Virus record (IMG/VR): IMGVR_UViG_3300031784_002227
Span: 1-40,768 of that record
Reading direction: 5' to 3' (one strand)
From: a virus
DNA: 40,768 nucleotides
The translations under genes were made by a program, and so were the position numbers. This document shows positions 12,909 through 40,136 of this stretch, piece after piece. Numbering within the stretch: the first letter of the stretch is position 1; each line of letters starts with the position of its first letter. Under the pieces are notes generated by a model. The model saw only the letters and a program-made list of their open reading frames with translations. It had not been told where the DNA came from and did no database searches.

Positions 12909-12937
12909 TTGACAACTGTTATAATTTACAATATAAT
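12909..12937 (+). promoter_or_regulatory. sigma70-type promoter abutting a start codon
   Basis: Exact TTGACA, a 17-base spacer and exact TATAAT. The -10 ends only five bases before ATG 12943, so the predicted transcript start falls on or next to the start codon. Confidence 0.82.
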
Positions 12938-12942
12938 GAACT

Positions 12943-13533
12943 ATGAACTTTACTAATGTAATCAATGCCGCTGGAAGTAGGATCACTGGAGGTAGTGACT
13001 ACGGTTGGCAATGTTATGGAACTAATTCACAAATTCTTGATTTCCAAAACATTGACAAAAAGCCCTACGCTCATTGCGTCTTTGATCGAGAAACACAAAC
13101 TGTTTATGAAATTGTAGTAGAGGTGCCGAATCACACGCAGGCATACAGATGGATTAATTTAGATTTTCGAGATGCATATTATAAAGAAAGTAATGATAGA
13201 GGTTTAGATCCTAATAATGCTTGGGATAACGTGTCTTTCACCCATGTAGACACTGAAGAACTTATTCTAGAATATCTAGAAGACATCGGTAATATAAATT
13301 ACAGCAATATCAATTTTAATCAGGAAAGTATTATGAGCAACGATAGATTTAAAGTAGATTTGGATATTCGTTTTGTGTTTGATGTAGAAGCATCATCAAT
13401 GGATGAAGCTCTTGAAAAGGCACACGAATGGCAAGAAACAATGAAGGTCAATTGGGGTAAGAATCCAGATGTTACCTGGATGGACCATGAAGTTGTAAAA
13501 GAGACAGTAAGCCGGGAACTCAGTTTCACGTGA
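12943..13533 (+). CDS. Hypothetical two-part protein (196 aa)
   Basis: The frame has two apparent parts. Residues 1-130 are an acidic aromatic-rich domain (GGSDYGWQCYGTN, RWINLDFRDAYY). Residues 131-196 start at an internal Met (ATG 13333) with a good ribosome binding site (AGGAAAG, 7 bases from AGGA to the ATG) and form a separate unit, MSNDRFKVDLDIRFVF to VKETVSREL. The first start has no leader, because the promoter lies directly upstream. The gene may therefore produce a full-length protein and a 66-aa C-terminal product, or be a fusion of two ancestral genes. No function recognised. Confidence 0.6.
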   Translation: MNFTNVINAAGSRITGGSDYGWQCYGTNSQILDFQNIDKKPYAHCVFDRETQTVYEIVVEVPNHTQAYRWINLDFRDAYYKESNDRGLDPNNAWDNVSFTHVDTEELILEYLEDIGNINYSNINFNQESIMSNDRFKVDLDIRFVFDVEASSMDEALEKAHEWQETMKVNWGKNPDVTWMDHEVVKETVSRELSFT

Positions 13534-20107: not shown

Positions 20108-20136
20108 TTGACAACTGGTAAATTCTCTGTTATAAT
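20108..20136 (+). promoter_or_regulatory. sigma70-type promoter for the 20167 gene
   Basis: Exact TTGACA, 17-base spacer, exact TATAAT. Transcription should begin near 20143, giving a short leader with AGGAGA before the TTG start. Confidence 0.85.
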
Positions 20137-20166
20137 ATATACATATTGCTAAACAGGAGATCTAAA

Positions 20167-27418: not shown

Positions 27419-27910
27419 ATGAAAATAGGTTTTAATTGTAGTTCTTTTGATTTGTTTCATGCAGGACATGTAACAATGTTAAAAATGGAAAAAAACTTAT
27501 GCGACTATTTAATAGTTGCGTTACAAGTAGATCCTACCGTAGATCGTCCGGGAATAAAAAATAAGCCCGTTCAGAGTGTTTACGAAAGATATGTTCAGTT
27601 ACAAGGTTGTAAATATGTAGATGAAATCCTTGTATACGAAACAGAACAAGATCTTCTTAACTTAATACAAACTCAAACTATTCATGTAAGATTTTTGAGT
27701 GAAGAATATTTGAATAGAGATTTTACCGGAAAGCAATATTGCCTTAATAACGGTATTGAATTACATTACCATAAGCGAAAACACCAATATAGCAGTAGCG
27801 ACCTCAGGCGCAGAGTATACGAATTGGAATTGACAAAACTAGAAGAATCAAGTATAATTAATATTCCTCAATACAGTCCTGAACTCCTTGAAAAATATCA
27901 AAATTCCTAA
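27419..27910 (+). CDS. Cytidylyltransferase (TagD-like)
   Basis: A 163-aa nucleotidyltransferase with the HxGH motif HAGH (His14, His17) that contacts the nucleotide phosphates, RYVQLQGCKYVDEI and a YSSSDLRRR motif equivalent to ISTTxLRxR of glycerol-3-phosphate cytidylyltransferases. It probably makes a CDP-activated polyol or similar compound. It follows UXS and the AbrB-like gene, so an activated-sugar role is plausible. About 30 residues at the C terminus extend beyond the catalytic domain. It overlaps the next gene's TTG start. Confidence 0.85.
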   Translation: MKIGFNCSSFDLFHAGHVTMLKMEKNLCDYLIVALQVDPTVDRPGIKNKPVQSVYERYVQLQGCKYVDEILVYETEQDLLNLIQTQTIHVRFLSEEYLNRDFTGKQYCLNNGIELHYHKRKHQYSSSDLRRRVYELELTKLEESSIINIPQYSPELLEKYQNS

Positions 27911-28928
27911 AATTGGTTTTGCATGTAAATGGATTGATCATCCCGATCAAGTAAATGGCATAAATGCAAAAGATGACGCTAAACAATATAATACTGGCTC
28001 TACAACCGTTGCATGGTTAAATAGACAGACCACAGAAGTAGCAGAACAAAAGCTATGGGACCTTATGGTAGGTAACATTGAATCTACTCGAAAGCTGGTC
28101 GAACGTGTGAGCACACTAGATGAAAATTGTAGAATGGTACGACTCAGTAGCGATATATTACCTGTATATACTCAGTCAGTTTGGAGCAGGTTTTGGCGGC
28201 TTTCCGATGTTCGAGCGTATTGCGAAAGAGAATTTAGATCCGTGGGAGATCTGGCTCGCAAGAATAACGTTCGGTTGTCTTTTCATCCTGGTCAGTTTAC
28301 TGTGCTGGCAAGTTGTAATCCAGGTATTGTAGAAAGATCAATAGAGGAATTTGAATATCATGCAGATATGGTCAGGTGGATGGGCTTCGGTAAACAATTC
28401 CAGGATTTTAAAATCAACGTACACATCTCGGGTAAACAAGGTCCCGAAGGTATTCGAACTGCCTACAAAAGACTTACCCCCGAAGCAAGAAACTGTATCA
28501 CCATTGAAAACGAAGAAAACGCCTGGGGGTTAGATGATTGTATTGAGCTTACTGATTTGGTACCTATCGTTCTTGATATTCATCACCATTGGATTAAAAC
28601 AGGCGAATATATCTCCCCCGTGGACTCCCGTGTTGATCGGGTGGTTCAGTCTTGGCGCGGTGTTCGGCCTACTATGCATTACTCTATCAGCCGCGAAGAT
28701 TATCTCGTGGATCATGACCCTTCTGTAGTCCCTGACTACAAGAGTCTTTTAGAGAATGGATATAAAAAACAAAAGCTCAGAGCACATTCTGACTTCTATT
28801 GGAATAAAAGTACCAACGAATGGGCTTTGAGCTTTTTAGATCGATTCGACATTATGGCCGAATCAAAAGGTAAAAATTTAGCTAGTTTTGCTTTACACAA
28901 GCAGGCTAAAGAATTAGGCCTTCTTTGA
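27888..28928 (+). CDS. uvsE: UV damage endonuclease (UvdE/UVDE-like)
   Basis: A 346-aa TIM-barrel enzyme with typical motifs: RLSSDILPVY, LSFHPGQF, TIENEENAW, LDIHHHW and MHYSIS, which supply the metal-binding His, Asp and Glu residues of UVDE proteins. The family cuts DNA 5' of UV photoproducts and abasic sites, starting an alternative excision repair. The start is TTG 27888 inside the preceding gene; the first internal Met is far downstream. It ends in a convergent overlap with the minus-strand gene at 28914-29216. In sunlit waters it would help restore the genome. Confidence 0.92.
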   Translation: MKNIKIPKIGFACKWIDHPDQVNGINAKDDAKQYNTGSTTVAWLNRQTTEVAEQKLWDLMVGNIESTRKLVERVSTLDENCRMVRLSSDILPVYTQSVWSRFWRLSDVRAYCEREFRSVGDLARKNNVRLSFHPGQFTVLASCNPGIVERSIEEFEYHADMVRWMGFGKQFQDFKINVHISGKQGPEGIRTAYKRLTPEARNCITIENEENAWGLDDCIELTDLVPIVLDIHHHWIKTGEYISPVDSRVDRVVQSWRGVRPTMHYSISREDYLVDHDPSVVPDYKSLLENGYKKQKLRAHSDFYWNKSTNEWALSFLDRFDIMAESKGKNLASFALHKQAKELGLL

Positions 28929-29216
28929 CTTGGCAGTACGTGCGGCTGGCTTTTTAACTGCTGGCTTTTTTGCGGCGGGCTTGGTAGCGGATGGCTTTGC
29001 AACTGCTTTAGGAGTACGTGGTTTACGTGCTGCCTTTGCAGGAGCTGCCTCAACAACCGGAGCTGCCTCAACAACCGGAGCTGCCTCAACAACTGGTTTA
29101 ACTTCTTCAGCAACTGGAGCTGCCTCAGCAACTGATGTTGAAGTTTCTGTAGTCTTCCTGTTGTATAGGTATACTCCTACTAATCCAATAAAAATAAGTC
29201 CGAAAATTAATTCCAT
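28914..29216 (-). CDS. Membrane-anchored histone H1-like Ala/Pro/Lys-rich protein
   Basis: A 100-aa minus-strand protein. The N-terminal transmembrane helix is LIFGLIFIGLVGVYLY (residues 3-18), followed by an acidic Ala/Val/Pro/Glu spacer with repeats of VVEAAP and then a strongly basic tail rich in KP, KKPA and TAKSKK like histone H1 or HU tails. The DNA has tandem 18-bp repeats at 29041-29094. AAAGGATTTC precedes the start, and a minus-strand GTAAATAA box lies near 29245-29252. It may tether DNA or RNA to the membrane. That is inference; no family can be named. Confidence 0.68.
   Translation of the reverse strand: MELIFGLIFIGLVGVYLYNRKTTETSTSVAEAAPVAEEVKPVVEAAPVVEAAPVVEAAPAKAARKPRTPKAVAKPSATKPAAKKPAVKKPAARTAKSKKA
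29041..29094. repeat. Three tandem 18-bp repeats in the H1-like gene
   Basis: GGAGCTGCCTCAACAACC occurs twice exactly (29041-29058, 29059-29076) and once with one change (29077-29094). A fourth diverged copy is at 29116-29133. Each unit encodes one VVEAAP hexapeptide on the minus strand, so unit number can vary by slippage without breaking the frame. Confidence 0.9.
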
Positions 29217-29317: not shown

Positions 29318-29346
29318 TTGACAAATCTGTCATAAACTATTATAAT
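29318..29346 (+). promoter_or_regulatory. sigma70-type promoter for the Suf-like operon
   Basis: Exact TTGACA, 17-base spacer and exact TATAAT; the start codon at 29354 is only seven bases past the -10, so the transcript is almost leaderless. An inverted repeat TGACAaatcTGTCA overlaps the -35 (29319-29332) and could be an operator. Confidence 0.85.
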
Positions 29347-29353
29347 TAAAAAA

Positions 29354-30079
29354 ATGCTAACAATAAAAAACGTGTCTGCCGTAATAGACCATAAAGAATT
29401 ACTAAAAAATGTTTCGTTAGAAATTAAAAAAGGAGAAGTACACGCTATACTAGGTCCAAGAGGATCTGGAAAAAGTAGTCTAATCCATCTTATAAGCGGA
29501 CACCCGGGCCTTATACAAACAGAAGGCAGTATTACATATAAAAATAAAAATCTTAAAAAATTAGATGCAGAAGATCGTGCTAGATTAGGAATGTTTTCAA
29601 CATTTCAATACCCGCCAGAAATACCCGGACTCATCAATATTGAACTTGTTAAGGCTACCCTTAAATCAAGATCAGATCCACGAAACGAACAAGAAATAGA
29701 AAAAGATTACAATTCGTTCTGCGACCTTTTAAGTATGGAAAAATTTCATTCTCAAAAGTTTATGGATTATGACGATATATCAAAATCAGATCTTAAGAAG
29801 AATGAATTATTACAAATGCTTATGTGTGATCCTGATTTTATTCTCATAGACGATATTGATGTACACATGGAAGACGAGGACATTGATATTGTATCTACTA
29901 TTTTAAATAGCTATATTAATGAAGACAAATGTATATTAATTATTAGCAACAATAAAAAAATATTAGATGCCGTAAATCCCACTCATGTACACATCCTAGT
30001 ATCTGGCGAAATTAAAGAACAGGGTAATAAAGAATTATATAAAAGGATTATAGAAGATGGCGATTCACAGTTTTCTTAA
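29354..30079 (+). CDS. SufC-like ABC ATPase with degraded catalytic motifs
   Basis: A 241-aa protein homologous to SufC, the ATPase of the SufBCD iron-sulfur scaffold. Walker A is intact (GPRGSGKS, 34-41) and the Q loop FSTFQYPPEIPGL closely matches SufC. Other motifs are altered: the ABC signature SGGE is SKSD (143-146), the Walker B catalytic Glu is Asp167 (FILIDD), and the switch His is Asn199 (IISNN). It would therefore probably bind ATP but hydrolyse it slowly or not at all. It overlaps the following SufB/D-like gene by 23 bases, and the two are likely partners. It may compete with, or rewire, the host scaffold. Confidence 0.85.
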   Translation: MLTIKNVSAVIDHKELLKNVSLEIKKGEVHAILGPRGSGKSSLIHLISGHPGLIQTEGSITYKNKNLKKLDAEDRARLGMFSTFQYPPEIPGLINIELVKATLKSRSDPRNEQEIEKDYNSFCDLLSMEKFHSQKFMDYDDISKSDLKKNELLQMLMCDPDFILIDDIDVHMEDEDIDIVSTILNSYINEDKCILIISNNKKILDAVNPTHVHILVSGEIKEQGNKELYKRIIEDGDSQFS

Positions 30080-30881
30080 AGCCGAAAAGGGCGACCCGGA
30101 TTGGCAATACAGCCCAGAAAAATACATAGGTAAGGAATTTAAACTTATCGATGCAAATACTGTCGAACTTGCAGAAAAACAAGTAAACATGATGGTATTA
30201 AGACAAAATCCAACTGAAAAAGAACTGCTTGCGAAGCATATAAAGATCAATGTAAAAGCTGAAGCTAAATTAGATCTTATTGTTATTAATGAGGCAGATA
30301 GCAAACTTCAACAAGTATTTTTGTACGATGTTCATGTTGAAGAAGGCGGAGCAATCAATTTTGGAATATTTGTCAAGGGCGGAAAGTTAAACAAGCACAT
30401 TATTCAAGTGTATCCCGAAGAAGGTAGCGAATTTAATGCTTACGGTCTTATGATGAATACAGTTGGTGGCGATACCGAAATTATTACTAAAACAGTTCAT
30501 CGACATTGTGATACCGTTAGTAATCAAGTTATTTTAGGAATAGCAGGCAAAGATAGTCAGACAGTTTTTCAATCAATGTCTGTTTTAGAACAAGGATCGG
30601 ACGGCAGCGAAACCCACATAGAATCTTCAAACCTAGTTATAGGAGAAAACGGAAGATGTTACAGTAAGCCTGATATACACGTAGACTGTGACGGCGTAGA
30701 ATCTTCACAAGGATGTAGTACTTCCTATCTTAATTTTGATAAACTATACTACCTACAAAGTAAGGGTATAGATATGAAAAAGGCCATAAAAATTATATTA
30801 GACGGCTTTCAAGGACAGGCTATAAACATTGTTCCTTACGAAGATATAAGAGACGAGATTACACAATTATTTGAAATTTAA
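30057..30881 (+). CDS. SufB/SufD-like iron-sulfur scaffold protein
   Basis: A 274-aa protein whose C-terminal half is a SufBD beta-helix and closing domain: SNLVIGENGRCYSKPDIHVD followed by CDGVESSQG, then LYYLQSKGIDMKKA as in the conserved FYLRSRG helix. In SufD this segment normally reads CSHGAT; here it is SSQGCS, so the conserved His is Gln218 and a Cys (Cys220) appears three residues after it. The protein is far shorter than SufB (about 495) or SufD (about 420), having lost much of the N-terminal region. With the SufC-like protein it could form a reduced or modified scaffold. Confidence 0.82.
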   Translation: MAIHSFLKAEKGDPDWQYSPEKYIGKEFKLIDANTVELAEKQVNMMVLRQNPTEKELLAKHIKINVKAEAKLDLIVINEADSKLQQVFLYDVHVEEGGAINFGIFVKGGKLNKHIIQVYPEEGSEFNAYGLMMNTVGGDTEIITKTVHRHCDTVSNQVILGIAGKDSQTVFQSMSVLEQGSDGSETHIESSNLVIGENGRCYSKPDIHVDCDGVESSQGCSTSYLNFDKLYYLQSKGIDMKKAIKIILDGFQGQAINIVPYEDIRDEITQLFEI

Positions 30882-30934: not shown

Positions 30935-30978
30935 GGATAATGTTAGCATTTAATTGGGAACCTTGTTATGGCGTTTAA
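30919..30978 (+). CDS. Possible 19-aa leader peptide before the giant adhesin
   Basis: A short frame (MTENLWIMLAFNWEPCYGV) starts at the ATG five bases after the late-type box, and its stop lies ten bases inside the next gene, which starts at 30968 with only a weak ribosome binding site. Translation of the leader would deliver ribosomes to the adhesin start. Homologs would be needed to call it a gene. Confidence 0.4.
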   Translation: MTENLWIMLAFNWEPCYGV

Positions 30979-33900
30979 TCCTAGCACCTCTTTTTCAGGC
31001 AATGGTGCCGGCGGTCAATTAACAGTAAACTATAGTACAACTGCGACCACTTGGGCGATTACTACACTTAATTTACTTGGCACTGTATCTGTTGGAACTT
31101 TTCCAAATACACAGAATTCTAATTCAATAGCATCACAAAGTTTTAATTTTACCTGGCCAGTACGTGGTGGTAAAACTATTGCCGCAACTATCAAACCTGC
31201 AACTGGGGGCAGTACCCCAATTGGTATTACTTCTGTAGGAATTATTCTTTACGGACCAAGTTCAGGCATTAATGTTAACGGGCTTAACAATACTGCTTGG
31301 ACATTAAACGCAGTTGAAGCAGGGATCCAAGGTGAAGACCTGTATGGCGGTGCCGTAACATCAAGTGGAGCATACAATTACAAAGATGGAAGATTTGTTA
31401 GTAATAATGCTTGGGGAACTATAACCGATAGTACTTGGGAAGCAGGTTATAGATCTCAAGACGGCCACAGCAAAATTATAGGATGGGCAAGAGACGGATA
31501 TCCTATATATGGACCGTACGGTTATTCGAGCGCATTGAATACTGCCAGTACCGTAATAAGAATGGTTTCGGGATTTTATCCTGTTAATAAGGCTAACCGA
31601 CCACCAACTAAAACACTAATTGTAAATGGAACTGTAACTTCATCTACACAATTATTAGTTTATAGTGCGGCTGGACTTGGTCTTGGAATGAGTGTTACCG
31701 GCGGCGGATTACCCAATGATGTTCGAATTATGAAAATCGTTGGTGTACAAATTACACTTAACAAAACAGTTAATATACCTAGCGGAACAGCTCTTACCGC
31801 GTCTTTCCCTCTAGGTATATTCATGGAAGACTGGGCATGGAGCAATACTACCGGAGTAACGCTAGATGTGTATAACGGAAGGTTCTGTCGAACACCCGAA
31901 TACCCAGAAGGCACATACGCATATTTTTTATCAGAAACATCAACTGGTGTTCCGTATTTTCCGTACATTGTTGGCCTAAACTTCTATGGACCAATTACTG
32001 CTGACAACAATAACATCACTCTATCTAATCTTACCGTTAGTAGCGGAACGTTGTCACCGGCATTTAATTCTAATGTTTTAAATTATAATTTAACAATAAC
32101 AAACACTGTATCATCTGTAAATTTTACACCTAGTGTTTCTACCGATACATCGTTTATAAAAGTTAACACCACTACAGTAATTTCTGGTACCACAGGGCCT
32201 GTTATTCCATTAATTGTTGGACTAACAACTGCTACAATAAGTGTTTCATCACAATACCAAACTACCGGAACTTATATTATTACAATTGACAGGCTTAAAA
32301 GTTCTAATAACAATCTGTCTTCACTTTTAGTAAGCCCGTCATCTCTTTCGCCGGTGTTTACTCCAACAGTAACATCTTATACTATTGTAGTCACTGAAAC
32401 AGACACTAATTTATATATTGTACCAACTGTTGCAAATTCATTTGCGACAGTTAAAGTTAATACAAGTACGGTTATATCTGGACAAATTGGAATTGTACCA
32501 TTAAGCTTCGGTTACAATAACATCAGTGTCGAAGTTACGGCTCAAGACGGAACAACAAAAACTTATTATATTACAGCAATAAGATTAAGCAACGTTTCAT
32601 TACTTACTAATCTATCTGTATCAACTGGAACACTTACACCTAGCTTTAACAAAAATACTTTCTATTATAATGTAACTATTCCAAATTCAATAACTGGTAT
32701 TTCTTTAACTGGAACAGTTATTGACTCAGGGTCTCAATTATATTTTAATGGTGTACTTACTCCTAGCGGTCAACAATATACATTAAGTGGTCTATCCACA
32801 GGCATTAATGTTATAACTGGCAAAATAAAATCTTCTGATAACACTACTGAACACAATTATAGAGTAAATGTTTTACGAGATTTAAGTTCTAATGCTGACT
32901 TATCTTCATTAACTTTTGCAGAAGGTTCCTTAATTCCTTCATTCTCATCTAGCACAGTTGCGTACTCTGCTCTAGTTAATAATGATATTAAAACAATATC
33001 AATAACTGCAAATACTTGGGATGCTAGTGCTGGGCTTTCTATTAATGGTGCTACAACATTATCCGGTGCAAGCAGTCAACCTATTCCTATTTTAGTAGGA
33101 ACTACTTCTATTCCTATAAGAGTTACTTCTCCTAACAGTACTGTACAAAAAACTTATACATTAACAATTACTCGAAAAGGTAGTAGCGTATCAACACTGT
33201 CAAATGTTATTGTGTTTGGAGGAACGTTAACTCCTGCGTTTAATTCTTCTATTACACAATATAATCTTCCTATAGGGTATAGAACTACCGGTGTTAAGAT
33301 TAGACCTTTTTCTTCAGATCCTACTAGTACAATTGCTATTAATAACGTTAATATTTTGTCTGGGACTACATCTACTAATATACCAACTTCAGTAGGAACT
33401 GTTAGCACCATAACAATTAAAGTTATTTCTCAAAATCAGGAAAGCACAACTACCTATACTATAAATGCATTAAGAGAATCTAACTATGACAATAATTTAT
33501 CTTATCTAATACCGGGAGAAGGAACACTCTCCCCCGTTTTCGATGCTGATATTACATCGTACAGTTACACAGTATCTGGTACAAGTGCCAATACTGAAAT
33601 TACTGCATTTACTAACGATCAAAACGCCCAACTTCTTATTAATAATGTACCTGCAACATCTGGAGTAGCAAGATCAGTCCCATTGTCCGGAAATTATAAT
33701 AACGGAGTATGGAACGGATTGAATGTTATCACAGTTAAAGTAATAGCCGCTAATCCAATATATCAAAAAACTTATACCCTTAATGTTACCAAACTGGCTA
33801 GCGGTGTTTCTACTTTAGATAATCTCGTAGTAGATCCTGGCTCATTTACTCCTGTGTTTAATTCTAATACTTACGAGTATTATCTTAATCTTCCATATGT

Positions 33901-36900
33901 AACCGATCAAATAAGAATTAAAGCAGATCCCACTGATATATATTCAACAATTTTAATGAACAATAACTTTATTGTTCAGCCTGGAACTTATTCTCCATAT
34001 TTTAGAGTATATGTAGGGAACCAAAACATTCCAGTAGTAGTTGAGTCTCCTAGTAAAGAAACTATAACAGGCTACAACATTTTTATAAACAGGGCCGGCA
34101 TTGGATCTAGCACAGATGCTTACTTGTTAAACTTGATACCTGATATAGGAATACTTAAACCAGCTTTTAACAAAAATGTATACAACTATACGTTATCAGT
34201 TGACGGTTCTGCTACAAAATATAGAATTTCTCCATACAAATCTAACAATGAATCAACTGTAAGAATTAATGGAAACATTGTGTTGTCGGGAGAATATTCT
34301 TCTTACATCAATTTACCTAATCCTGTTACTACCAGTACGATTAGGGTAACGGCTGGTGACAATGCTACTATTCAAAATTATACCGTAACAGTAGTCAAAG
34401 CAAAAAGTTCTAACTCTTATCTTTCAAATATTATTTTAAGCAATGGTAAACTTACATCATTGTTTACTTCTACTAAAACTGATTATACTATTGAGTTACC
34501 ATTTTATGTTAAAGCTATATCAATAAAACCATTTACAGCTGATAGTCAATCTAGAATGGGAGTACAGAGGTTATTGGTTACTTCAGGTACTTGGAGTCAA
34601 CCAGTATTGACTCCTCCAGGAACTACTACTGTGGTAATTGACGTAACTGCTGGAGACCAAGTATCTCAAACATTATATAAGTTTAATGTTATAAGAAGTA
34701 ATGCAGTACTTACAAATCCAGCAAATTTATTTTTACAAAATTCTCAAAATACAGTTTACGCAAATTTACTTAATAAAAATTCTTTAAGAATAATTTCTAA
34801 AGGTAGAACAACTTATGTTACCTCAGACACATTTCCAAACTCGTATATAAGATTTCCTGTACTTGATCAAAAAATTGATGTAATTTATCCTTACAGAGGA
34901 GGAGAAAGAGTACCAGCAGAAGTTCCAATATACCGAGATGCTACTACTAATACTGTAGGAATCACAGTTGTTGGAATTCCTATTAGAAATCCTAGGTCAA
35001 CTACTGTAGCAGGTCTTAATTCGAGTACTTGGTCTTTAGATGCTAATTTTAATATTAAAACTATGCCAAGAGATCCATATAGTGGAGGTCCAGATAATAC
35101 TGGTGCTTACTATTATCTCAATGATAAATTTGTTACTAATAATGCCTGGGCTAATACTCAGGGATGGTTAGGAGATTACACTCACGATGACGGACATAGT
35201 CGAGTAATAGGCTTTGCGGCTGACGGATACCCTATATATGGACCATACGGATATGCTTATCCAACAAGTCCGCTTGGCGGCGTTAAGCAAATGACCTCAG
35301 GGTATACTACAAAGATACTGCCAAATAGACCACCCTCTGTCGAAGTAAGGACTCAATTTTTTGCAGACTCTAATACAATTTTGTTACAGAGCGTAACAGG
35401 ATTACAAGTTGGCATGAGAATATTTGCCGCTGGCCTAGCTAAAGAACTAGATACAACTATTTTACAGATAAACACCACTACTATAGTAGTTGATAGGTCT
35501 GTTTCTATCTCAGTTGATATTCCAATTACTGCATATTGGCCAAATGGCGCTTTTGTAGAAGATTATGTATATTCGATCACTACAGCAACACTTGATATTC
35601 ACAATGGTAGATATTGCGTAACTCCTGAATACCCAATAGGAACATATGCATACTTTATGACAAATAAAAATGGTGTTCCTGCTTACCCGTATGTTATAGG
35701 TAATACCTTCTTTGGAAACTTATCAGATCAAGTTGTAACAAACACCGTGAAGCCAACCTGGGTCACTACTCAAGGTTTACTTCCGATAGTTACTGAATTA
35801 TTACCAGCATCTATTACACTTTCTGCAACTGGACCAAATGTTCGGTATCAACTTATTAACGGGTCGTTACCTAACGGCCTTACACTTAATACTTCCACTG
35901 GAGTAATTTCCGGAGTACCGACAGTCGTTTGGTTAACAGATCGTTCAGAATTTGTGATAAGAGCATATAACCAATACGGAGTTGTTGACCGAAGTTTCAT
36001 GATAGATGTACTTGGACCTACACCTCCTAGATTTATTACTCCGGGTATTAGACCAGCCGTGGGCCCAAGCGGTGAAAAATATTTAATCAACGGTCAAATT
36101 GTAGATTTTCAATTTACAGCTACTACTGATATATTAGGACCAGGCAGAGAAATTACATATCATATTGCCGACGGTGATGGACAACTTCCTCCAGGTCTTG
36201 TCCTTACTAATGACGGTCATTTATATGGGCAAGTAAAAGATAATTTAACATTATTTTATCAATTAGCCAGTAACGGAGCATTTGATGAACAGGGATGGGA
36301 TGCGGCTCCGTTTGAGCATGTTAGTCTACAAGCAATAGGCTCGGGTCCTAGATTTATTAATAAAACTTATCAGTTTATTATCACTGCATCAAATGCGGCA
36401 GGTACTGCAAGACAACTTTACCAAATTGATGTAAATGATCCTTCATCAGATATATCAAAATATCCTGTAGCTCCACAATGGCTGACACCAAGTGATCTAG
36501 GTTCTATTCGTGCAAACACAAAACAAGTTATTCAATTTGAAATACACGACTGTGATCCTGGTACTGGAAATATAACATTTGATTGGGAACAGGTAAATGA
36601 AGACTTACCAGTTTTACCACAAGATATGGTTTTAGATAAGATTTCTGGAACTATGAGTGGTTATTTAAGATATACTCCAGTATACAGTTCAGTTTATTCA
36701 TTTAAGGTACGAGTACTTAAGACTAGTCCAATTACGGGTATTACTACTTTTAGAGATAAAAACTTTACAATAACTATTCAAGGCGCAACTATTAGTAAAA
36801 TGAAATTTATTACTGATAGTAACGTTGGTACCTTATATCAAGGTCAACAAAGTGAGTTGTCTATTCTAGCTCTACACGACGATCCAAATATTAAAGTTAG

Positions 36901-37780
36901 ATATTCTTTACAGAGTGGATCTTTACCTCCTGGTATAGGACTTACACAAGACGGCGCATTGGCAGGAGTTGTTCCTTATAATACAGCTACCACTGTTGCA
37001 ACAACTTATTCATTTAATGTATTGGCTATTGATAGTAATTTAGGTAGTCAATTAGTTAAAAACTTTAAGGTACAAGTATTGCCTTACCAAGGACAAAAAT
37101 ATACAAAAATTCTATTACATCCGTTGTTAAGCATTAAAGATCGACTATACTGGGATACATTTATCAACGATCCTTCAGTATTTGATTTTTCTTTATTATA
37201 TAGACCGTACGATCCTGCATTCGGAGTTCAAAAGGTCCTAGAATTTGTTCTAGAATGGGGAGTACAAGAACTTTACATTGCACAGTATGTAAATTCTTTA
37301 CAGAATTATTTTTATAGAAAAAGATTATATTTTGGAGAACTTAAATCTGCATTTGCAACTGACGATAACGGGGACAAACTATACGAAGTTGTATACGTAG
37401 AATTAATAGATAATTTAGTAAACGACAGCGGAGTTCCAATTAATCCGGTAGTTCAGTATGGAGATACAACAATATATCCAAATAGTATTGACGGTATGCG
37501 GGGCGCCATAGAGAGCATTGCATCGTCTAGTGATGATCTTTTACCAAAATTTATGAGAACTGTACAGGATAATACTGGGGTTCCTTTAGGAAGAATTATT
37601 TGTTTACCGCTATGTTATTGCTTGCCTGGTAATAGCCAACTTATTATCCGTAAGATCGAAACATATGGTATTGATTTTAAACTTATTACGTTTGATTTAG
37701 ATAGAATAACCGTGTTAAACACCAAGGATAATTCTAGTGCTAAATATTTGCTGTTCCCTAAAAGAGGATTTTTAACGTAA
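30968..37780 (+). CDS. Giant YHYH/cadherin-like repeat adhesin, likely tail-associated (2270 aa)
   Basis: A 2270-aa protein, the largest in the window. Residues about 1-345 contain a YHYH domain (DGYPIYGPYGY at about 176-186). Residues about 346-1245 are nine cadherin-like beta-sandwich repeats of about 100 aa, each with a core like LSPVFTPTVTSYTI and ending in Y(T/I)ITI. A second YHYH domain follows (DGYPIYGPYGY again near 1420). Residues about 1595-2010 have four Ig-like segments with LPPGLVL/LPNGLTL motifs (He_PIG-like). The C terminus (2040-2270) is unique. It is followed by fibre genes, so it is probably a tail-fibre or baseplate host-recognition protein. No signal peptide is visible. 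Confidence 0.85.
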   Translation: MAFNPSTSFSGNGAGGQLTVNYSTTATTWAITTLNLLGTVSVGTFPNTQNSNSIASQSFNFTWPVRGGKTIAATIKPATGGSTPIGITSVGIILYGPSSGINVNGLNNTAWTLNAVEAGIQGEDLYGGAVTSSGAYNYKDGRFVSNNAWGTITDSTWEAGYRSQDGHSKIIGWARDGYPIYGPYGYSSALNTASTVIRMVSGFYPVNKANRPPTKTLIVNGTVTSSTQLLVYSAAGLGLGMSVTGGGLPNDVRIMKIVGVQITLNKTVNIPSGTALTASFPLGIFMEDWAWSNTTGVTLDVYNGRFCRTPEYPEGTYAYFLSETSTGVPYFPYIVGLNFYGPITADNNNITLSNLTVSSGTLSPAFNSNVLNYNLTITNTVSSVNFTPSVSTDTSFIKVNTTTVISGTTGPVIPLIVGLTTATISVSSQYQTTGTYIITIDRLKSSNNNLSSLLVSPSSLSPVFTPTVTSYTIVVTETDTNLYIVPTVANSFATVKVNTSTVISGQIGIVPLSFGYNNISVEVTAQDGTTKTYYITAIRLSNVSLLTNLSVSTGTLTPSFNKNTFYYNVTIPNSITGISLTGTVIDSGSQLYFNGVLTPSGQQYTLSGLSTGINVITGKIKSSDNTTEHNYRVNVLRDLSSNADLSSLTFAEGSLIPSFSSSTVAYSALVNNDIKTISITANTWDASAGLSINGATTLSGASSQPIPILVGTTSIPIRVTSPNSTVQKTYTLTITRKGSSVSTLSNVIVFGGTLTPAFNSSITQYNLPIGYRTTGVKIRPFSSDPTSTIAINNVNILSGTTSTNIPTSVGTVSTITIKVISQNQESTTTYTINALRESNYDNNLSYLIPGEGTLSPVFDADITSYSYTVSGTSANTEITAFTNDQNAQLLINNVPATSGVARSVPLSGNYNNGVWNGLNVITVKVIAANPIYQKTYTLNVTKLASGVSTLDNLVVDPGSFTPVFNSNTYEYYLNLPYVTDQIRIKADPTDIYSTILMNNNFIVQPGTYSPYFRVYVGNQNIPVVVESPSKETITGYNIFINRAGIGSSTDAYLLNLIPDIGILKPAFNKNVYNYTLSVDGSATKYRISPYKSNNESTVRINGNIVLSGEYSSYINLPNPVTTSTIRVTAGDNATIQNYTVTVVKAKSSNSYLSNIILSNGKLTSLFTSTKTDYTIELPFYVKAISIKPFTADSQSRMGVQRLLVTSGTWSQPVLTPPGTTTVVIDVTAGDQVSQTLYKFNVIRSNAVLTNPANLFLQNSQNTVYANLLNKNSLRIISKGRTTYVTSDTFPNSYIRFPVLDQKIDVIYPYRGGERVPAEVPIYRDATTNTVGITVVGIPIRNPRSTTVAGLNSSTWSLDANFNIKTMPRDPYSGGPDNTGAYYYLNDKFVTNNAWANTQGWLGDYTHDDGHSRVIGFAADGYPIYGPYGYAYPTSPLGGVKQMTSGYTTKILPNRPPSVEVRTQFFADSNTILLQSVTGLQVGMRIFAAGLAKELDTTILQINTTTIVVDRSVSISVDIPITAYWPNGAFVEDYVYSITTATLDIHNGRYCVTPEYPIGTYAYFMTNKNGVPAYPYVIGNTFFGNLSDQVVTNTVKPTWVTTQGLLPIVTELLPASITLSATGPNVRYQLINGSLPNGLTLNTSTGVISGVPTVVWLTDRSEFVIRAYNQYGVVDRSFMIDVLGPTPPRFITPGIRPAVGPSGEKYLINGQIVDFQFTATTDILGPGREITYHIADGDGQLPPGLVLTNDGHLYGQVKDNLTLFYQLASNGAFDEQGWDAAPFEHVSLQAIGSGPRFINKTYQFIITASNAAGTARQLYQIDVNDPSSDISKYPVAPQWLTPSDLGSIRANTKQVIQFEIHDCDPGTGNITFDWEQVNEDLPVLPQDMVLDKISGTMSGYLRYTPVYSSVYSFKVRVLKTSPITGITTFRDKNFTITIQGATISKMKFITDSNVGTLYQGQQSELSILALHDDPNIKVRYSLQSGSLPPGIGLTQDGALAGVVPYNTATTVATTYSFNVLAIDSNLGSQLVKNFKVQVLPYQGQKYTKILLHPLLSIKDRLYWDTFINDPSVFDFSLLYRPYDPAFGVQKVLEFVLEWGVQELYIAQYVNSLQNYFYRKRLYFGELKSAFATDDNGDKLYEVVYVELIDNLVNDSGVPINPVVQYGDTTIYPNSIDGMRGAIESIASSSDDLLPKFMRTVQDNTGVPLGRIICLPLCYCLPGNSQLIIRKIETYGIDFKLITFDLDRITVLNTKDNSSAKYLLFPKRGFLT

Positions 37781-39344: not shown

Positions 39345-39587
39345 ATGTATAATCCACTTTTTATGGATCCGGCTACTCTTAAAGATTCCGAGCTGGAGAA
39401 TAAAATTCTAGAATTATCCAAAAAGTATAATACAGCCTCGCAGTTAGGCAACGGCGGTTTGGCTAATCAAGTCCTTACGTTATTACTCACACTCAAAGAT
39501 GAGCAAATAAAAAGAAGTCAAACATTGGTTGCTAAAACAATCAAAAATGATAACAAAGATCTTGGAAATCTAATCAACATCAATTGA
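39345..39587 (+). CDS. Conserved helical phage protein (80 aa)
   Basis: It begins immediately after the stop of the fibre gene. It consists of helices with Leu/Lys/Glu heptad-like spacing (KDSELENKILELSKKYNTAS, then LANQVLTLLLTLKDEQIKR). I associate this with small conserved proteins near T4-like baseplate genes. The exact role is unknown. Confidence 0.62.
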   Translation: MYNPLFMDPATLKDSELENKILELSKKYNTASQLGNGGLANQVLTLLLTLKDEQIKRSQTLVAKTIKNDNKDLGNLININ

Positions 39588-39612
39588 TCTTTTGTATTTG
39601 TCATGTTATAAT
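39584..39612 (+). promoter_or_regulatory. sigma70-type promoter abutting a start codon
   Basis: TTGATC (two mismatches), 17-base spacer and exact TATAAT, which ends five bases before ATG 39618. This is the same spacing as at 12909. Confidence 0.7.
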
Positions 39613-39617
39613 TGTGT

Positions 39618-40136
39618 ATGAACATAGACAAATATGGTCGAACGACTTTAACCGAAAACGAAGCGTTAGAAGCTATATATAGCAATTCTTACAACTTTCT
39701 CGATTCAGTATATTTCTCCAATACAAATACAGTTTTAACCTTTAATCAAGCGGTTGAAAAAAACGCCGATATTATTCCTTTACTAAAATTTTATCAAAAT
39801 TTAGATATTGAAATTAAAGATTGGGATACCCAGTTACAAAACCAATGGTTTATGCCCAAGGATTACTGTCCTGATTTGATAGAAATGCTCTACAAAATGT
39901 GCAAAACTAAAGAACAAACAGAAAGAGTGAGCACAGAGTTAGAATTGTTTATCCAACATAATATGATGGATCTATTATTTTATCTTAAATATCTAGTAGA
40001 TACATTACGCCAAAACAAGATTGTATGGGGTGTAGGACGCGGATCTAGCGTGGCCAGTTATGTTCTATTTTTAATAGGTGTCCATAAAATTGACAGTATT
40101 AAATACGATCTAGATATTAAAGAGTTCTTAAAATAA
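39618..40136 (+). CDS. Stand-alone DNA polymerase III alpha-like segment (172 aa)
   Basis: The C-terminal 40 residues (WGVGRGSSVASYVLFLIG, then IDSIKYDLDIKEFL) closely match the GRGSaagSlvaY...iDPl.y.LlFeRFL block at the start of the DnaE-type polymerase domain. The preceding helices also fit the region just upstream in DnaE. It stops exactly there, before the palm aspartates, so it cannot be a polymerase on its own. It may bind the host replicase or primer-template, or be a remnant. ATG 39618 is chosen because it fits the promoter at 39584; the TTG at 39612 would lie within the -10. Confidence 0.75.
   Translation: MNIDKYGRTTLTENEALEAIYSNSYNFLDSVYFSNTNTVLTFNQAVEKNADIIPLLKFYQNLDIEIKDWDTQLQNQWFMPKDYCPDLIEMLYKMCKTKEQTERVSTELELFIQHNMMDLLFYLKYLVDTLRQNKIVWGVGRGSSVASYVLFLIGVHKIDSIKYDLDIKEFLK

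Follow-up and report, generated by a model that had tools for sequence, protein, structure and literature searches.

A reduced, catalytically degenerate SufC-SufD pair descended from a phage-borne SUF operon

The closest described relatives of the phage gene pair analyzed here are SufC and SufD of Escherichia coli, structurally represented by the SufBC2D complex (PDB 5AWF), the SufC2D2 complex (PDB 2ZU0) and SufD (PDB 1VH4). In E. coli, residues K40, E171 and H203 of SufC are each required in vivo, and cluster building also depends on His360 of SufD and Cys405 of SufB (PMC6006206). A two-gene arrangement of one SufC-type and one SufBD-type protein is known from the minimal SMS system of M. jannaschii, SmsC2B2, in which SmsC, its ABC motifs intact, relies on a CxxC at the C terminus for its cluster (PMC12192291). 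Among Fe-S assembly genes, IscU and A-type carriers are already known in viral genomes.

The DNA analyzed is a 40,768-nucleotide (40.8-kb) fragment, IMG/VR record IMGVR_UViG_3300031784_002227, referred to as the window. On its plus strand, the open reading frame at 29354..30079 (ATG at 29354, stop at 30079, 241 amino acids), whose coordinates and frame are exactly those given in a first-pass annotation made from the sequence alone, encodes a SufC homologue, SufC*, in which the nucleotide-binding motifs are kept and the hydrolysis motifs are lost. Its top NCBIfam match is the sufC model TIGR01978 (E=1e-57), with a score of 195.2 bits that falls below the equivalog cut-off of 212.8 bits, and the top matches in a PDB search are SufC of E. 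coli and Thermus thermophilus. The AlphaFold model, a single chain as is that of its partner, has a pLDDT of 91 and a TM score of about 0.92 to SufC chains 5awf_C and 2zu0_C; a structure search of the viral library BFVD yielded nothing at E<=0.001.

Alignment to E. coli SufC bears out the motif assignments of the first-pass annotation, in that Walker A (GPRGSGKSS, including K40) and the SufC-specific Q-loop (FQYP, Gln85) are preserved, while the signature SGGE is replaced by SKSD (residues 143-146), Walker-B Glu171 by Asp167 (LDE171 to IDD167) and the switch His203 by Asn199 (TH203 to SN199). Walker-B Asp170 (E. coli numbering), the SufC-specific basic latch (E. coli K152, here K148) and the counterpart of E. 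coli D173 (here D169) are also present, and the translation contains no CxxC. Because the multiple alignment places no Glu or His near Asp167 or Asn199, the canonical residues cannot simply have been displaced by misalignment, one of the outcomes that the annotation had named as fatal to its reading. Its expectation that ATP is bound yet scarcely hydrolyzed is a reasonable prediction from such motifs, K40, E171 and H203 each being needed in the E. coli protein (PMC6006206), and its view that the gene is something other than an ordinary auxiliary metabolic gene is likewise supported.

The 3' end of sufC* overlaps by 23 bp a second plus-strand gene, sufD* (30057..30881, 274 amino acids), which encodes a truncated SufD and which the first-pass annotation had overlooked. 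The product scores 112.7 bits against PF01458 (SUFBD_core; cut-off 27) and 130 bits against the sufD model TIGR01981, below the equivalog cut-off of 222 yet well above the 21 bits obtained with the SmsB model. Its structure model (pLDDT 86) was matched by Foldseek to SufD in 2zu0 with a TM score of 0.79 and an rmsd of 2.2 A, and the PF01458 and Foldseek matches indicate that the core beta-helix and the C-terminal SufC-binding helices are present; the N-terminal helical domain of SufD, as read from the alignment, is missing. Scans of cellular genomes with a SufD* profile recovered distant homologues only (21-25% identity).

Scans of IMG/VR placed the sufC*-sufD* pair at 31 distinct loci, the window included, a set which represents a sample rather than a census because the sequence patterns employed were taken from this same family. 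The two genes overlap at all 31 loci. None of the pair-type SufC proteins has the Gly-Gly of the signature, five retaining the second Gly only, whereas Glu171 is retained in 23 of the 31 and His203 in 17; of the three alterations in the window, the loss of the signature alone is universal. Signature, Glu171 and His203 are all lost in 6/31, in two separate lineages (the window with L012, and L031-L034). The nucleotide-site residues are, by comparison, nearly invariant (K40 and D170 in 31/31, Q85 in 30/31). Since SGGE, E171 and H203 are retained in 13 cellular SufC proteins, in the L057/L059 phage group and in 26 phage SufC proteins from SUF-like operons, the loss of motifs in the pair-type proteins is not a matter of chance. 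In SufD*, the SufC-binding end is kept (Y232, L233, G237 and K/R236 in 31/31, A243 in 29/31), and a new cysteine, Cys201, is near-invariant (29/31). The position of E. coli SufD His360 is occupied by Gln218 in the window and by His at six of the 31 loci, and that of SufB Cys405 is a Cys at a single locus. A DPDW motif at the N terminus of SufD*, predicted to be disordered and resembling a binding peptide, is near-invariant.

Both genes of the pair are under purifying selection, with omega values of 0.04-0.18 for sufC and 0.02-0.25 for sufBD among pairs with estimable dS; for the window genes, dN/dS is about 0.10 for sufC* against a 92% relative and about 0.04 for sufD*, values which rule out a pseudogene. 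The phage origin claimed in the first-pass annotation is sustained by the RIIA and tail genes of the window and by a T4-type portal gene in 8 of 9 tested relatives' contigs of at least 140 kb, several pair loci lying on 200-355-kb contigs with such a gene; bacterial contamination is thereby ruled out for the pair clade.

Two further groups of SufC sequences were encountered in the course of these searches. At L057 and L059 (L059:7069-8732), a canonical SufC follows a 312-amino-acid protein whose sole remnant of SufBD is the C-terminal, SufC-binding end; here SufC seems to have found a second use in phages. Most SufC matches within the phage record collection look bacterial, being unverified wastewater or faecal clones, and five of them served as bacterial-type controls; one record, Microcystis phage MaAM05 (MW495066.1, 264309-273876), carries sufBCDSU next to panC and looks like a bacterial chromosome.

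The pair occupies a conserved locus. Upstream lies a gene for a UvdE-type UV endonuclease (27888..28928, plus strand), which identifies the locus in relatives whether or not they have a full SUF operon, followed by a conserved gene divergent from sufC* (28914..29216, minus strand), whose short product is rich in Lys, Pro and Ala and carries a hydrophobic segment at its N terminus; downstream, a giant tail-type protein with Cadherin-like repeats and YHYH domains (30968..37780, plus strand) forms the conserved border. Across relatives the order is UvdE, the divergent gene for the short Lys-rich protein, in many cases an Fe/Mn superoxide dismutase gene, sufC, sufD and the giant tail-type gene. 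The phage-encoded dismutase (examples being L024:6351-6896, L090:5458-6012 and L091:5802-6356) adjoins sufC* in 15 of the neighborhoods and an A-type carrier in two others.

A sigma70-type promoter with a perfect TTGACA-N17-TATAAT sequence (29318..29346, plus strand; 0 mismatches, with 0/300 shuffles as good) precedes sufC*. As its -10 element ends 7 nt before the ATG and no Shine-Dalgarno sequence lies ahead of that codon, the sufC* message is predicted to be leaderless and transcribed by the host RNA polymerase. This spacing is widespread among the 31 relatives, the -10 of the best promoter site ending 5-7 nt before the start codon in most of them, with L004, L018, L022, L051 and L055 as the exceptions. 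Elsewhere in the window, at 12909-12945, 20108-20148 and 39584-39620, strong promoters of the sigma70 type likewise have the -10 just a few bases ahead of a start codon, which, together with that of sufC* (29318-29356), suggests leaderless genes. The short product of the reading frame at 39612-40136 matches the DNA polymerase III alpha NTPase domain (PF07733).

The origin of the pair is indicated by four related phage contigs which carry a complete SUF operon at the same locus, comprising sufB, a canonical sufC, sufD, sufS, sufE, sufT and sufA (L127:1078-6184 and L128:1078-6238, found via a search with the L051 SufS, and L130 and L132, added by a SufB search; L129 is the same contig as L128, and L131 the same as L127). 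In L129-L132 the order is UvdE and/or superoxide dismutase, sufB, sufC, a short sufD, sufS, sufE, sufT, sufA and a phage tail gene; SufC retains SGGE, E171 and H203, and SufD belongs to the same short family as SufD*. Family scans of L127/L128 placed SufB and SufC above the curated cut-offs (278 bits for SufC with TIGR01978), the catalytic Cys of SufS is present in both, and sufT is fused to sufE in L128. L051, L055 and their near-duplicates are intermediates between the full operon and the degenerate pair: they possess a SAGE signature, Asp in place of Glu171, sufD, intact IscU and IscA, and, behind sufC-sufD in the operon (L051:8016-9852 and L055), a SufS-like protein with Asn at the position of the catalytic Cys (GHLNARP). 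With full operons at the same locus and such intermediates at hand, the window pair is seen to descend, in reduced and catalytically degenerate form, from a SUF operon carried by phages.

A tree of SufC sequences unites the 29 degenerate members in one clade (99.9/100) and L051/L055 with L129-L132 in a second (98.8/100), which is the probable sister of the degenerate clade, although support for this relation, at the join with the outgroups, is weaker (54.8/88). On the basis of this tree and the shared synteny, the simplest history is that of a phage ancestor with a complete SUF operon, from which sufB, sufS, sufE, sufT and sufA were then lost while SufC catalysis eroded; the converse, that L129-L132 acquired these genes, is less likely, as the canonical motifs are ancestral. 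SUF-like operons are also present in more distant IMG/VR contigs (several of L133-L166); among the tested contigs with a SufB match, three (L141, L151 and L161) have a T4 portal and the others have none. PHROG 12033, listed as of unknown function, matches SufB.

The window being a fragment, the wider Fe-S context was read from its relatives. One full SUFBD-core match was found in each of 19 of the 21 records tested, those of L057 and L059 having a C-terminal fragment only. SufB is absent from the pair genomes tested, and among the records tested SufS is absent outside the L051/L055 and full-operon groups and SufE outside the full-operon group. Given the missing SufB, a His360 counterpart at only 6/31 loci and a Cys at the Cys405 position in 1/31, cluster building of the E. 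coli type is impossible on the pair alone. Fe-S clients do exist in degenerate-clade genomes, as is apparent from A-type carriers (G001, G002, G004 and G010), IscU (G004) and radical-SAM genes, the latter in several genomes, with as many as 11 in a single contig and QueE-like proteins recognized among the matches by visual inspection of the sequences. A-type carriers are absent from some degenerate-clade genomes tested, and no ferredoxin Fer2 clients were found. The 353-kb contig of L028, a jumbo phage genome, has approximately nine radical-SAM matches within 12 kb (G003:C1:11285-23351).

We propose, with about even confidence, that SufC* and SufD* constitute a nucleotide-binding, weakly or non-hydrolyzing module derived from a phage SUF operon which is probably still engaged in iron or Fe-S handling. 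The homology and fold of the two proteins, the conservation of the pair, its motif loss, its descent and the selection on it are demonstrated here; ATP binding, the oligomer and the iron or Fe-S role are inferred. A T4-like jumbo phage ancestor with the complete operon at this locus would have lost sufB, sufS, sufE, sufT and sufA; SufC has lost the ABC signature throughout the family, and in the window lineage also the catalytic Glu and the switch His, while the nucleotide-binding residues and the dedicated SufD partner were retained with both genes under purifying selection. SufC* would bind ATP while attached to the C-terminal domain of SufD* and act as a slow or non-hydrolyzing, nucleotide-responsive clamp on a SufC*2D*2 particle, which may hold iron or Fe-S clusters or assist their transfer to phage Fe-S enzymes such as QueE and other radical-SAM proteins, the sulfur presumably being supplied by the host. 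The loss of SufB, the scarcity of His360 (6/31), the lack of SufS and SufE in the degenerate-clade genomes tested and the patchy distribution of A-type carriers count against this proposal.

Several other readings of the same evidence merit consideration. The first-pass annotation had envisaged a lone SufC capturing the host SufB/D scaffold; as a dedicated SufD-like partner overlaps sufC* at all 31 loci, that scaffold need not be captured, and the idea in its original form is weakened, although capture of the scaffold or a hybrid with host SufB is a possible arrangement. Close to it is an unlikely but live alternative in which SufD*-SufC* would dock on host SufB-SufC to give a SufB-SufC-SufC*-SufD* hybrid, the host SufC providing the good signature and SufC* Walker A and B, such that one ATP site would work and the other be dead, as in asymmetric ABC heterodimers, and host Fe-S assembly could be steered or throttled. 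Of the BCD core only sufB is missing, sufC and sufD remaining, and loss of the signature in 31/31 with E171 persisting in 23 and H203 in 17 is the pattern expected if a partner lends its signature; however, both the window lineage and L031-L034 have lost the Walker-B Glu and the His as well, the SufB-facing H360 is not retained, and the hosts may lack SUF altogether, since L051 and G004 carry IscU, a component of ISC.

Rather improbable, in our estimation, is that the pair has given up iron and sulfur handling for some other phage function, for example as a nucleotide-gated adaptor or protection factor, only the fold and partner binding having been kept. The SufC catalytic residues, SufD H360 and the L051 SufS Cys have indeed eroded while dN/dS stayed low, the DPDW N terminus of SufD* is binding-peptide-like, and the L057/L059 SufC is paired with a protein keeping only the SufC-binding end of SufBD; against this, further Fe-S genes turn up repeatedly in these genomes, superoxide dismutase is a recurrent neighbor and no alternative partner was identified. 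The stepwise loss of genes from a larger operon might describe a decaying relic devoid of function, a notion made very improbable by the low dN/dS of both genes, the intact frames and pairing in 31/31, the conserved promoter and the invariant nucleotide-binding residues. A tentative broader formulation, to which we attach somewhat less than even confidence, is that of a viral pseudo-SUF complex, in which a whole SUF operon was acquired, the scaffold and sulfur-donor subunits were shed and SufC would have become a switch that binds ATP without hydrolyzing it and whose function is new or hybrid.

The open-access library searched yielded no account of complete SUF operons in T4-like jumbo phages or of a reduction series ending in a degenerate SufC-SufD pair, and reports elsewhere are possible. 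As both SufC and SufD have here been maintained by selection although SufB is gone and SufC is predicted to hydrolyze little or no ATP, the series provides natural experiments on an open SUF question, namely the roles of that hydrolysis and of SufB. The viral genomes of Nishimura et al. 2017 (PMC5332604) are similarly T4-like and contain Fe-S assembly genes with many radical-SAM genes; the parts of that report consulted describe carriers and IscU rather than SufB/C/D operons or a degenerate SufC-SufD pair. The SMS system shares the two-gene composition, but the window SufBD protein is SufD-like rather than SmsB-like (130 versus 21 bits), and its SufC lacks the CxxC of SmsC. With E. coli SufD, SufD* shares the beta-helix core and the SufC-binding helices, differing in the missing N-terminal helical domain and His360, the new Cys201 and the lack of a SufB partner in the genomes tested. 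SufC*, finally, shares with E. coli SufC the fold, Walker A, the Q-loop, the K152-type latch, D173 and an adjoining sufD gene, and is set apart from it by a score below the NCBIfam sufC cut-off and the loss of the signature Gly-Gly, the Walker-B Glu and the switch His.
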